From Carettochelys insculpta (taxonomy: Eukaryota; Chordata; Testudines; Carettochelyidae): 64,000 nt of DNA. The stretch lies in assembly GCF_033958435.1 (NCBI RefSeq), contig NC_134147.1, positions 44,138,001-44,202,000 on the forward strand. The letters are read 5' to 3'. The position numbers were made by a program, and so were the translations under genes. Of this stretch, positions 4,145 through 51,424 are shown one piece after another; position 1 is the first letter of the stretch, and every line of letters begins with the position of its first letter. Below the pieces are notes generated by a model. It saw nothing but the letters and a program-made list of their open reading frames with translations, did not search any database and was not told where the DNA came from.

Positions 4145-4405
4145 GCAGGGAGCCATGTTAGTTTGTTTCAGCAAAAGTAATGAGGAGACCTGTGGTACCT
4201 TAAAGACTAAAAATTGTATTTAGGTGCAAGTTTTTGTGGGCTGGAGCCTATTTCATCAGATACATAAAGTGGAAACTTCATCGGTAGAGATATAGACATA
4301 CATACCTAGATGGGAGTGTTACATTTTCACCTTCTTATCAGTTGTGAGGAATGGGCCACATCCACTCTGACTGAATCGGCCTCGTTAACACTGGTCATCA
4401 TCAAG
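4145..4405 (-). mobile_element. Penelope-like element 3' fragment (PLE-A)
   Basis: Read on the minus strand, this holds the 3' non-coding part of a PLE: a 'gatgtggcccattcc' block, then CTGATGA at 4255-4261, a G-rich/C-rich segment, 'cccacaaaaactt', 'tagtctttaaggtaccaca', and the terminal 'aaactaacatggct' near 4150. The same ordered blocks occur in the PLE copies at 9.2, 14.4, 15.3, 28.0 and 51.2 kb. The GIY-YIG coding part is absent, so it is 5'-truncated. No TSD was found. Confidence 0.72.
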
Positions 4406-9229: not shown

Positions 9230-9499
9230 GTCTGAGAGGGGTAGTTAGTCTGTAGCTTCACAGAAAAACCAAGCAGTCCTGTCGCATCTTAAAGACTAAC
9301 AATTTTATAACAATGATATTTATTAGATAATGAGCTTTCAAGGGCAACACCCACTTCAGATTCTGGAGCAAAAATGAGAAAACTCTGTGTGTGTAATAGG
9401 ACCTGTGGAAGGAGTAAAAGAAGTGAAGTAATTTGTGTCATTCCTGCTAATATCAAAGCTGGGGAAATTGTCTTTATAATGCATAAGATAATTTAGCTC

Positions 9500-13800: not shown

Positions 13801-14352
13801 TACATCCAGCCCCTGCTGTAGCCCCCACAATTCCTAACACTGCCCTCACCATGCACCACACCCATCATCCTGAGCCCCCCGACACCCAACTCCCTGTGTG
13901 CTGAGCCCCCCACATCCTGCCCTCATTCCTGTGCTTACCCCCACCCTGAATCACCTCCACCCCCAGCCCTCTGCCCTACACAATCATTTAAATACAACAA
14001 ACACCTTTTCCTTTTATTTATTTATTTTTACATTAGTACAGTTAAGGACCTGGGCAACACTGGGTACGTCGGCTAATGAGCAATATTAATACAATCCATG
14101 AAAACAGAGTTCATTAGTGGTATCATGCGAGGGACATGCTTCAGCAATATTTATAGCTTAGTTTCGGTTCACACCACGTTTTTCATACCTCCTCAGAAAT
14201 AACCTCTATTTACTTTCCCACTCTCTCTGTTACCATTTGGCAAATGCCATTTTCATTCTGTGTCGCCCTGGCTTTTCCCGTGAACATCCTTATTAACATA
14301 AGCGCCATCACTAGTGATGTCAGGCATGTTAGGTGCGCACCTCTGGGAGCAG
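13801..14352. other. No gene recognised
   Basis: C-rich sequence grading into AT-rich sequence. No coding or repeat signal that I can name. Confidence 0.5.
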
Positions 14353-14364
14353 CATTTATCAGCT
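14353..14364 (+). repeat. Left target-site duplication of PLE-C
   Basis: CATTTATCAGCT, repeated exactly at 15044-15055. Confidence 0.9.
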
Positions 14365-14632
14365 ATTTTGGAGCATAAGCTTTCATGGGCAAAGGCCCTC
14401 TTCATCAGATGCATGAGTGGGAGGTGGTTTCAGAGGGGTATTTAAAGAGTGGGGTCCCAGTAAGAGGGAGGACCAGAGCTGACAAAGTCTATTCAGCAAG
14501 GTGGAAATGGCCCATTACCAATAGTACGTATCAAAAGCATTAAAAAAACAACTCAGATCAGACAGGGGGATGTGAGCCCATTGTTAGAGTCTAATGGGAA
14601 GATATTAACACCCAGGGCAGAGAAGCTGTTTT
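14365..14632 (-). repeat. Left arm of PLE-C inverted repeat
   Basis: Begins 'attttggagcataagc' and ends '...cagagaagctgtttt'. It pairs with 14697-14961 with about 268 versus 265 bp. It stops 6 bases beyond the expected cleavage point of the hammerhead-like motif and lacks the terminal 82 bases present on the right side. Confidence 0.88.
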
Positions 14633-14696
14633 GTAAACTGCGAGCCACTCCCAGTCTCTGTTTAATCCTTGGTGAATGGAGTCAAATTTGACATAA

Positions 14697-14961
14697 AAAA
14701 ACAGCTTCTCTGCCCTGGGTCTTAATATCTCTCCATTAGACTCTGACAATGGCTCATATCCCCCTGTCTGATCTAACTTGTTTTTCCTCTTTTGATACGT
14801 ACTAGTGATACTGGGCCATTTCCACCTTGCTGAATAGACCTGCTCAGCTGTGGCCCTCCCTTTTACTGGGACCCCACTCTTCAAATACCCCTCTGAAACC
14901 CCTCCCCACTCATGCATCTGATGAAGCGGGTCTTTGCCCACGAAAGCTTATGCTACAAAAT
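14697..14961 (+). repeat. Right arm of PLE-C inverted repeat
   Basis: Plus-strand partner of the left arm, from 'aaaacagcttctctgcc' to 'gcttatgctacaaaat'. It contains the hammerhead-like core at 14918-14953. Confidence 0.88.
14918..14953 (+). ncRNA. Hammerhead-ribozyme-like core in PLE-C
   Basis: CTGATGA at 14918-14924; a possible stem II of GCGGG (14926-14930) with CCCAC (14937-14941); GAAA at 14942-14945; then GC-TTAT-GC (14946-14953) as a minimal stem III, followed by T and A. This is the order of a type I hammerhead. Hammerhead motifs are established in Penelope-like elements of other eukaryotes. Against it: an extra A (14925) lies between the core and stem II, one stem II pair is C-A here, no stem I pairing is apparent, and the expected UH is UA in this copy. 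Active folding is unproven; it may be a relic. Confidence 0.35.
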
Positions 14962-15043
14962 AGATGTTAATCTATAAGGTGCCACAAGACTTCTTGTTGT
15001 TCTTGAAGCTACAGACTAACATGGCTACCTCTCTGATACTTGA

Positions 15044-15055
15044 CATTTATCAGCT
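15044..15055 (+). repeat. Right target-site duplication of PLE-C
   Basis: CATTTATCAGCT, an exact copy of 14353-14364. Confidence 0.9.
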
Positions 15056-15297
15056 GACATTCTTGGAGTTGGATGGCAGCACAAGAAACATTGCAAGGTC
15101 AGGCCTGCAGAGTAGGTATTTTTCCTGCACCATTTCTCAGTGGAGGCCTTAACAAGAGTATATAGAGTTCAGAGGAGACTTTCTGTTTCATATAAATAAA
15201 TACATAGAATAAAGGATAGCCTCAAAGGGGCCCAATACCTGCCAGGTGCCTTGAGTGCACTGGTCCTAAAGAACAAGCAGTCCTGTAGCAGAAGAAG

Positions 15298-15930
15298 ATG
15301 CAGATCCAAAACTCAGATGACCCCTCACTCTCACAGTCCTTGGGAGGCAGGCCAGTCCTCTCCTGCAGACAGCCCACTAACCTGAGGCAAATTCTCACCA
15401 GCAGCTATGTACCACACCTCAGTAATTCTAACTCAGGAACCAATCCCTGCAACAAACCTCGGTGCCAACTCTGCTCACATATCTACACCAGCGACACCAT
15501 CACAGGACCTAACCACATAAGCCACACTACCAGGGGCTCATTCACTTGCACAGCTACTAATGTAATATAAGCCATCATGAGCCAACAATGCCCCTCTGCC
15601 ATAAATGTTGGCCAAAGTGGGCAGTCTCTGCATAAAAGAATAAATGGACACAAGTCAGACATCAGGAATGATAACATACAAAAAGCTGCAGAATGTGTCA
15701 GTCTCCTTGGACACGCCATAGCAGATTTAAAAGTAGCCATCCTGCAACAAAAAACTTCAAAACCAGACTTCAAAGAGAAACTGCAGAGCCACAATTCATT
15801 TGCAAGTTTGACACCATCACTCAAGCACTGAACAAAGACTGGGAATGGTTGGCCAACTGCAAAAGTAGTTTCTCCTCTCTTGGTGTTCACACCCCCACAT
15901 CAGCTGTTGGAAGTGGACCACATCCTCCCT
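15298..15930 (+). pseudogene. PLE-D C-terminal GIY-YIG endonuclease region, broken
   Basis: An open frame at 15298-15570 gives the linker with a Cys/His cluster (residues 40-61: NPCNKPRCQLC then H) before a stop. The same frame continues at 15577 with CPSAINVGQSGQSLHKRING and GHKSDIRN, the conserved GIY-YIG block of Penelope proteins. Two changes matter. The stop replaces the Tyr expected in the first motif ('VxYaI', here a TAA). The YIG motif reads NVG. A frameshift near 15770-15790 moves the C-terminal tail (ICKFDTITQALNKDWEWLA) into another frame at 15693-15932. The copy cannot make an active nuclease. The assignment to this family is inferred from these motifs. Confidence 0.8.
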
Positions 15931-16016
15931 GACGGAACTGACCTCATTAACTCTGGCATTCCTCTTACTTGGTACTCCCTTCTTTTCTTGTGCCTGTATA
16001 TTTCCACTACATCCAT

Positions 16017-16048
16017 CTGACGAAGTGTGTCTTTGCTCATGAAAGCTT
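16017..16048 (+). ncRNA. Hammerhead-like segment in PLE-D
   Basis: CTGACGA at 16017-16023, a weak stem (GTGTG 16025-16029 with CTCAT 16036-16040), GAAA at 16041-16044, then GC-TTAT-GC and 'tcc'. The middle base of CTGAnGA differs from PLE-C (C for T), which is the one free position in the hammerhead core. The stem II is weakened, so this copy is probably inactive whatever its origin. Confidence 0.25.
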
Positions 16049-16432
16049 ATGCTCCATTAAATCTGTTAGTCTATAAGATGCCACAGGACTTCTCATTTTT
16101 GCAGATACAGACGAACACGGCTACCACTCTGATACTTGACACCAACGAGAATCTTTCCTCACCTTTAATGGGAGCTGGATTAGGCTGTATAATATTCATC
16201 AGTGAAGACTAGCTGACTAAAAGACTAGATGATAAAGATAAGCAGAGAGGCTAATGGTGAAATTCACTCCTTTGGTAGGGCTAGTTAAAGACTTTGGCCT
16301 CAAATAGGTCTTAAATTGGCTTTAAATACTACGAAATCCTGTTAGCGTATGTATACACAGGCACCCCGCACCCACTAACACCCCCAAACCAAGCAATCAA
16401 ACCCTGCATCAAGTCTGAGAGCTAGGGTTGCC

Positions 16433-27816: not shown

Positions 27817-28102
27817 CTCGTCTGCATACTTGGCTTAATCTAATTCTTGACCTTCCCCCCCACCCCTCCACTCTCTGATTTGCTCACCTTGATCATTTTT
27901 TTCTGATTTGTCCTCCTTGATTACTGTTTTTGGTTCTCTGTGCCTTAAATATTGAGTCTGTTCCGGTCTGGCTATGATCTGAAGAAGTGGGTCTGTCCCA
28001 CAAAAGATCACCTAATAAACTATTTTGCTAGTCTTTAAAGTGCTACTTGACTGCTTTTTGTTTTGACAGTGTATAGACTAGCACAGCTCCCTCTCTGTTA
28101 CT
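27817..28102 (+). mobile_element. Penelope-like element 3' end (PLE-E), second subfamily
   Basis: Plus-strand 3' region of a different PLE subfamily. The end of the coding tail is at 27820-27850, followed by a C-rich stretch, 'ttggttctctgtgccttaaa' and CTGAAGA at 27979-27985. GTGGG (27987-27991) with CCCAC (27997-28001) then 'aaaag', 'tagtctttaaagtgctac' and 'agactagcacagctccctct'. The same block order as PLE-C and -D. 5'-truncated, no TSD found and no inverted piece seen. Confidence 0.8.
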
Positions 28103-51179: not shown

Positions 51180-51188
51180 GTAACGTAA

Positions 51189-51415
51189 TTATCAGAGGGT
51201 AGCTGAGTTAGTCTGTATCTTCAAAAGCAACAAGAAGTCCTGTGGCACCTTATAAACTAACAGATATTTTGTAGCATAAGCTTTCATTGGCAAAGACCCG
51301 CTTCATCAGATGCACGAGTGGGAGCGTTCCAGAGAATCTTCCTCTGGAACCCTCCCTACTCATACATCTAACAAAGGGGGTCTTTACCCACAAAAGCTTA
51401 TGCTCCAAAATAGCT
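51189..51415 (-). mobile_element. Penelope-like element as a hairpin (PLE-F)
   Basis: The left arm (51189 to about 51335) is a PLE 3' region on the minus strand including the true 3' end ('tatcagagggtagctgagtt'). The right arm (about 51343-51415) is the same region on the plus strand. They meet at a 9-bp perfect stem: GTTCCAGAG (51327-51335) and CTCTGGAAC (51343-51351), 7-base loop. The right arm ends 'gctccaaaata', at the same place as the PLE-C inverted arm. Possible TSD: GTAACGTAA (51180-51188) and GTTACGTTA (51416-51424), 7 of 9. Confidence 0.82.
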
Positions 51416-51424
51416 GTTACGTTA

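Follow-up and report, generated by a model that had tools for sequence, protein, structure and literature searches.

The foldback described here lies at positions 14353-15055 of a 64,000-nucleotide stretch of the genome of the turtle Carettochelys insculpta (NC_134147.1, positions 44,138,001 to 44,202,000), referred to below as the window. Direct reading of the sequence and self-alignment both place an exact 12-bp repeat, CATTTATCAGCT, on either side of 679 bp (14365-15043) that contain two inverted copies of the 3' region of a Penelope-like element (PLE; Table 1). An earlier note on this DNA had reported the same foldback and the same single 12-bp TSD. A repeat search of 14000-15400 returned no third copy of CATTTATCAGCT, and the flank pair of this foldback outscores all 870 cross-locus flank pairs that served as the null. 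The inverted arm runs from family position ~333-341 at its outer end to ~1 at its head end, and the sense arm ends in the true 3' end of the PLE, ...CTCTGATACTTG. The last five bases of the left TSD (CAGCT) can also be read as PLE sequence of a known allele, AAAATAGCTG, and the 20-mer carrying this allele has 592 exact copies in the genome. AGCT at the end of the arm was considered as a fixed terminus and rejected, being a family allele past which the element continues in most of 30 loci.

Table 1. Positions of the foldback, its parts and other PLE copies in the window.
Feature	Position	Strand	Remark
Left TSD copy, CATTTATCAGCT	14353..14364	+	12 bp
Inverted tail-less arm, antisense PLE 3' region	14365..14697	-	333 nt
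Arm junction, inside A-run	14694..14700	.	BLAST matches of the arms overlap by 4 bases
Sense tail-bearing arm with true 3' end	14698..15043	+	346 nt; family positions ~64-415
Hammerhead-ribozyme-like core, CTGATGA...CGAAA.GCTTATGCTA	14918..14954	+	by eye
Tail, absent from the inverted arm in most family foldbacks	15005..15043	+	39 nt
Right TSD copy	15044..15055	+	12 bp
More diverged sense PLE copy with decayed ORF pieces	~15300-16141	+	~240 bp downstream of the foldback
Second, smaller, more diverged foldback of the same kind	51187..51419	-	
PLE 3'-end fragment	27977-28102	+	
PLE 3'-end fragment	9244-9312	-	
PLE 3'-end fragment	4147-4265	-	

The two arms align across 261-274 columns in two alignments, in keeping with the length of about 265 bp given previously. 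Their 193-nt ungapped core is 88% complementary, and 26 of 261 columns differ between them. The last ~75-80 nt of the element are present in the right arm alone, which agrees with the earlier placement of the true 3' end between the TSD copies, and the left arm alone extends ~63 nt further to the 5' side of the element; the inverted arm is without the 39-nt tail and ~35 nt more. The arms are offset at both ends, a feature absent from the earlier note, and neither is a plain copy of the other because each includes a stretch of the element missing from the other, on opposite sides.

The Penelope-like identity, also recognized earlier, is supported by protein domains in other copies of the family, the foldback itself being a 3' fragment without that part. 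A 425-amino-acid stop-free stretch in copy L025 matches GIY-YIG (PF01541) at 23.0 bits against a cutoff of 22.6, and copy L043 contains an RVT_1-like region (PF00078; 28.5 bits, E 1.5e-6) slightly below its cutoff of 29.6, with a visible YIDD motif. Features of the EN+ clade of PLEs that are seen in the family include GIY-YIG, inverted pLTRs with a 30-40 nt tail, and a TSD around the insert. Comparison of the 425-amino-acid stretch of L025 with solved structures gave no match at E 0.01, and the two ORF pieces at 15289-15828, downstream of the foldback, gave no match to Pfam at the same threshold.

A core in the sense arm (Table 1) resembles, by eye, that of the hammerhead ribozyme. An Rfam scan of the arms gave no hammerhead match, and microRNA-like Rfam matches at the arms were discounted as what a long hairpin can give. 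The single Rfam hammerhead match, at L081:2668-2757, is under the gathering score and outside the arms. A consensus-like allele folds as a three-way junction with a z of -1.2, and 25 of 200 shuffles were equally good. The hammerhead question carries no weight in the conclusion reached here.

The genome searched was the window's own (2.18 Gb, 134 contigs), in which the PLE-end 20-mer GAAAGCTTATGCTCCAAAAT matches exactly at 16,208 places, 7848 on one strand and 8360 on the other. Use of the foldback as a query gave 8228 candidates, 40 of which were scored. A pattern search of viral contigs returned three matches, of 16 bases only. The loci taken comprised 40 stretches (39 elsewhere and one around the second foldback of the window), 30 around an exact 20-mer (29 distinct elements), eight close inverted pairs, and 40 from GAAAGCTTATGCTCCAAAAT in genomic order. 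L012-L019 were found with a foldback as query, which favours foldbacks; the foldback fraction given below was derived from loci identified by exact match to a 20-mer. Among the first 100 places of GAAAGCTTATGCTCCAAAAT listed, eight pairs (seven distinct, given the duplication at L084/L085) lie no more than 100 bp apart, and all eight are head to head, with none tail to tail. Over the first 8.32 Mb of C1, removal of segmental duplicates reduced 45 places or pairs to 38, and the GAAAGCTTATGCTCCAAAAT copy belongs to a head-to-head foldback in 18 of these 38 distinct loci (8.3 Mb). This fraction is an overestimate, by no more than about twofold, since either arm of a foldback can contain the 20-mer. 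L119, where a foldback stands beside a 20-mer copy that is itself single, was counted as single. Foldbacks are a common product of this PLE family rather than a rare one, and the description of the foldback at 14353-15055 as a special case does not stand.

Several further arrangements were observed among these loci. Local segmental duplications with foldbacks, some of them inverted, occur at L084/L085, L112-L114, L124/L125 and L126-L129 (C1:6.0-8.3 Mb). Mobility of foldbacks as foldback elements was considered for L084/L085, which have the same junction, and rejected, this pair being a segmental duplication (97% over flanks). The foldbacks of L013 and L082 directly adjoin another PLE 3' end, an arrangement that might reflect a target preference for PLE ends. 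L020 and L047 resemble ordinary L1-type 5' inversions, with an inverted piece that begins far upstream of the usual inner site. At L094 and L095 (G000:C1:2778538-2781367), a sense copy runs past the fetched stretch and a short inverted end lies 2 kb off; the two are probably parts of one long PLE whose inverted pLTR is short. Tail-less solo ends stopping at or before the inner start were seen at L092, L093, L101, L103, L105, L117 and L123, and are either single insertions that began at the inner start or inverted arms with an undetected partner.

Both outer ends of 49 foldbacks were scored against a 415-nt family sequence, and the labels of tail arm and inverted arm derive from these outer ends. 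Outside the 49 are L106, L119, L126 and longer foldbacks including L033 and L045 (all cut by a locus end), the 2-kb pair L094/L095, and the duplicates L061, L084, L113, L114 and L125. The sense arm ends at family positions 404-415 in 47 of the 49, the exceptions being L058, which is ambiguous, and L081, in which the final bases, past a short deletion, still match the end of the element. The inverted arm starts at positions 366-388 in 43. An early inverted-arm start, at 335-356, characterizes the remaining six: the foldback at 14353-15055, the second foldback of the window, L070, L078, L083 and L121. The second foldback begins its inverted arm at ~341, near the same unusual inner place, and no significant TSD was found for it. 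The offset between the outer ends of the two arms has a median of 40 nt, or 39 without the early class. Almost every foldback pairs one outer with one inner start. The foldback at 14353-15055 is atypical in two respects, namely its inner start, ~35 nt further in, and the lack of private mutations common to its arms, which is considered below.

The layout of an inverted pLTR, an optional tail and a TSD is already published for PLEs (PMC3846280). There, the bdelloid elements Pen2a_Av and Pen2_Av have head-to-head inverted pLTRs within one 9-10 bp TSD pair, the inverted-pLTR structure is stated for fruit flies and fish as well, and bdelloid Penelope carries a 31 bp tail at one inverted pLTR only, with some palindromic junctions (PMC3846280). 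Turtle foldbacks resemble bdelloid Pen2 in their head-to-head inverted ends, one TSD pair, one-sided tail and some palindromic junctions. Unlike bdelloid Pen2, they are very numerous and mostly short 3' fragments without an ORF, and their inner start is mapped on 49 copies, that of the foldback at 14353-15055 lying ~35 nt further in. No publication on the foldback statistics of turtle PLEs was found by title and start of abstract, in a search that reached little of the subscription literature.

The closest biochemical counterpart is Poseidon of Anolis carolinensis (PAc). The PAc protein cleaves and extends both target strands in vitro, reverse transcription begins at two adjacent internal RNA sites, and the 30-40 nt between these sites correspond to the genomic tail (PMC11167929). 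The start site in vitro was the same for the top and bottom strands, no foldback product is described in the sections consulted, and later steps of insertion are given there as unvalidated (PMC11167929). Turtle foldbacks likewise show two start sites with the tail between them, but unlike the PAc reaction in vitro, they almost always combine one outer and one inner start. A second point of comparison is L1 twin priming, in which the two cDNAs, where they overlap, do so by a median of 12 bp (PMC12016303); dual priming via a second mRNA is offered as speculation in another L1 study (PMC2837659). As in L1 twin priming, both target 3' ends would prime in the route proposed here for PLE, one TSD pair results, and short common bases are sometimes found at the inner junction. 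Unlike the L1 products, PLE arms copy up to ~370 nt twice and have a narrow start site. The foldback at 14353-15055 was considered as an L1-type twin priming product, in which halves of one RNA in opposite orientation overlap barely or not at all, and this was rejected in view of the 261-274 columns over which its arms overlap. L020, by contrast, does resemble such a product.

The favoured explanation, with a probability of roughly 0.7, is that, in a single insertion, the two strands of the target were cut and each primed synthesis, with two start sites used on the RNA. From the observed anatomy, TSD pair, start sites and head differences, we infer two-strand priming, an order of steps and a joining reaction as follows. 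The PLE ribonucleoprotein would make cuts ~12 bp apart on the two strands of a single target site. Reverse transcription primed by one of the target 3' ends, at the outer, 3'-terminal start, would then yield the sense arm, while a second reverse transcription, primed by the other at the inner start, would yield the inverted arm. The two cDNAs would stop independently and have their 3' ends joined at a short A-run, giving a foldback with one TSD pair from a single insertion. At 14353-15055, the unusual inner start was perhaps set by the five bases (CAGCT) common to target and RNA, and the template may have been a second RNA originating from a different copy. Two-strand priming is not free of difficulties. 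The strict pairing of an outer with an inner start is unaccounted for by the in vitro data, which show no strand difference, and the inner start at 14353-15055 lies outside the main cluster. The arm overlap of ~265 nt, far above that in L1 twin priming, also counts against this explanation, since it would require double copying of one RNA or the use of two. Further points against it are the 14 of 42 foldbacks whose flanks have no repeat above the 99% null and the failure to recover an empty site.

These two versions of two-strand priming were compared through derived states common to the arms. Arm overlaps span 26-371 columns. Across the 36 foldbacks whose arms overlap by 60 columns or more, both arms carry 132 derived states in common, compared with 49.2 expected from arms of other loci. 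Eleven of the 36 exceed every control arm pair; the others mostly overlap over short lengths. Among the 11 whose arms overlap by at least 190 columns, nine exceed every control arm pair, the exceptions being L019 and the foldback at 14353-15055. When single copies were used as controls for overlaps above 200 columns, five of eight other foldbacks exceeded all 60 comparisons, and L018, L014 and L019 did not. In most long foldbacks both arms seem to derive from a single source RNA or from RNAs of a single locus.

The foldback at 14353-15055 behaves differently. Its arms have one derived state in common, of 17 and 14, in the second alignment, and one, at a different site, of 16 and 12 in the first; the latter occurs in 13 of 29 single copies, and both states are found in other copies. 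The earlier note had proposed that arms copied in one event should share private mutations, which is the case in most of the other long foldbacks and not at this locus. It had also called for arm-to-arm divergence to be compared with divergence from the family, and the values are 10.0% between the arms and 5.8% and 4.9% from arm to family. The arms are discordant at four of 10 family-polymorphic non-CpG sites. In the other ten long foldbacks, seven of 86 polymorphic sites (with matching common states) or eight of 86 (with any difference) are discordant, a contrast with a one-sided Fisher p of 0.014 or 0.020, post hoc. For unrelated single copies the proportion of discordant polymorphic sites is 46%. 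Arms belonging to different subfamilies had been named as evidence against unit insertion. The four discordant sites point weakly to such arms and, because there is a single TSD pair, are read as two templates in one insertion. There are two ways to account for the arms at 14353-15055: copying of two different RNAs, or a source identical to the family sequence with every difference acquired later by mutation. Comparison of the arm sequences leans weakly to two RNAs.

Within two-strand priming, it is possible, if somewhat doubtful, that a single RNA was copied twice by tandem reverse transcriptases, with the inner one ahead and the outer one behind. The long overlaps that beat all control arm pairs and the nearly universal combination of one inner with one outer start favour such double copying. 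The five of eight that stand out against single copies, the 11 of 36 that exceed every control overall, and the scarcity of common states together with the discordant sites at 14353-15055 weigh against it.

A different route to inverted arms, by self-priming, was inferred by Arkhipova et al. (2013) from palindromes at inverted junctions of bdelloid Penelope (PMC3846280). The 3' end of the first arm, or that of an antisense RNA, would fold back at a palindrome and be copied into the second arm. Common source of the arms in most long foldbacks accords with this route, as do the junctions, where ATGCAT is found inside the junction in 10 of 42 foldbacks and both heads lie at 279-291, around ATGCAT, also in 10 of 42. 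Heads no more than 14 nt apart were found in 27 of the 49 foldbacks, often at the palindrome, and this near-equality counts against two-strand priming to the extent that it fits self-priming too; the near-symmetric junctions could have arisen by self-priming or through the annealing of two cDNA ends. However, self-priming requires the template arm to carry the tail and to be the longer one at the junction. In 10 of the 49, the foldback at 14353-15055 among them, the tail-less arm exceeds the tail arm at the junction by at least 15 nt, and in 12 the excess is on the side of the tail arm, although the assignments of L051 (of the 10) and L058 (of the 12) are not robust, their unassigned junction bases exceeding the offset. 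Such a division of the 22 asymmetric foldbacks is the expectation if two cDNAs stop independently. Three foldbacks with a longer tail-less arm and a long overlap (L015, L016 and L081) still exceed every control in common derived states. Self-priming also needs the second arm to be contained in the first, bar the loop, which the arms at 14353-15055, offset at both ends, contradict. Self-priming may be correct for part of the symmetric class, but the 49 foldbacks argue against it as the general route, and overall it is an unlikely explanation.

It is very improbable that two PLEs inserted one after the other in opposite orientation, with the later one landing at the head end of the earlier. Insertion of a PLE beside a PLE end does occur (L013, L082), and the arms at 14353-15055, with no private mutations in common and four of 10 polymorphic sites discordant, would suit separate events. 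Against this, both arms at this locus lie within a single exact 12-bp TSD pair. Flank repeats were further tested in 42 foldbacks, the last seven of the 49 standing outside this set, with the 99% point of 1722 cross-locus pairs as null. Repeats between left and right flanks, in stretches of 8-15 bp with no more than one mismatch, exceed this null in 28 of the 42, and 14 have no flank repeat above it. Repeats between left flank and junction exceed it in one of 42, and between junction and right flank in none, which is the chance level. This pattern supports insertion as a unit, as the earlier note had concluded, and two successive insertions are therefore rejected as the general route. The recurrent inner and outer starts and the uniform head-to-head orientation of the close pairs would also be unexpected if second insertions were random. 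The joined flanks of the foldback at 14353-15055 gave two candidates in the genome, both of them the locus's own flanks, and no paralogous empty site; 28 joined flank pairs compared with the loci in hand likewise gave no empty site, the spanning matches being the loci themselves. Least probable of all is formation of the second arm after insertion, by template switching in replication or inverted duplication of a single copy, for although the arm matches overlap by a few bases at many junctions and segmental duplication of foldback loci exists, such an origin would require the duplicated arm in 43 of 49 foldbacks to terminate both at the TSD and at one shared inner position of the element, and the inverted arm at 14353-15055 holds ~63 nt absent from its partner.

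A broader proposal, put forward tentatively and with less confidence than the two-strand explanation itself, is that priming from both strands, at one outer and one inner start, constitutes the standard route of turtle-type PLEs, with thousands of products, and that some insertions, such as the one at 14353-15055, copy two RNAs in true dual priming.

PLEs are described as a third class of eukaryotic retroelements, and the published proposal found for their inverted copies is self-priming. The turtle genome offers a very large natural set of foldbacks in which starts, junctions and TSDs are readable, so that both self-priming and two-strand priming can be tested by counting. The first 49 of these foldbacks tie the two-start, two-strand chemistry described in vitro to real insertions.
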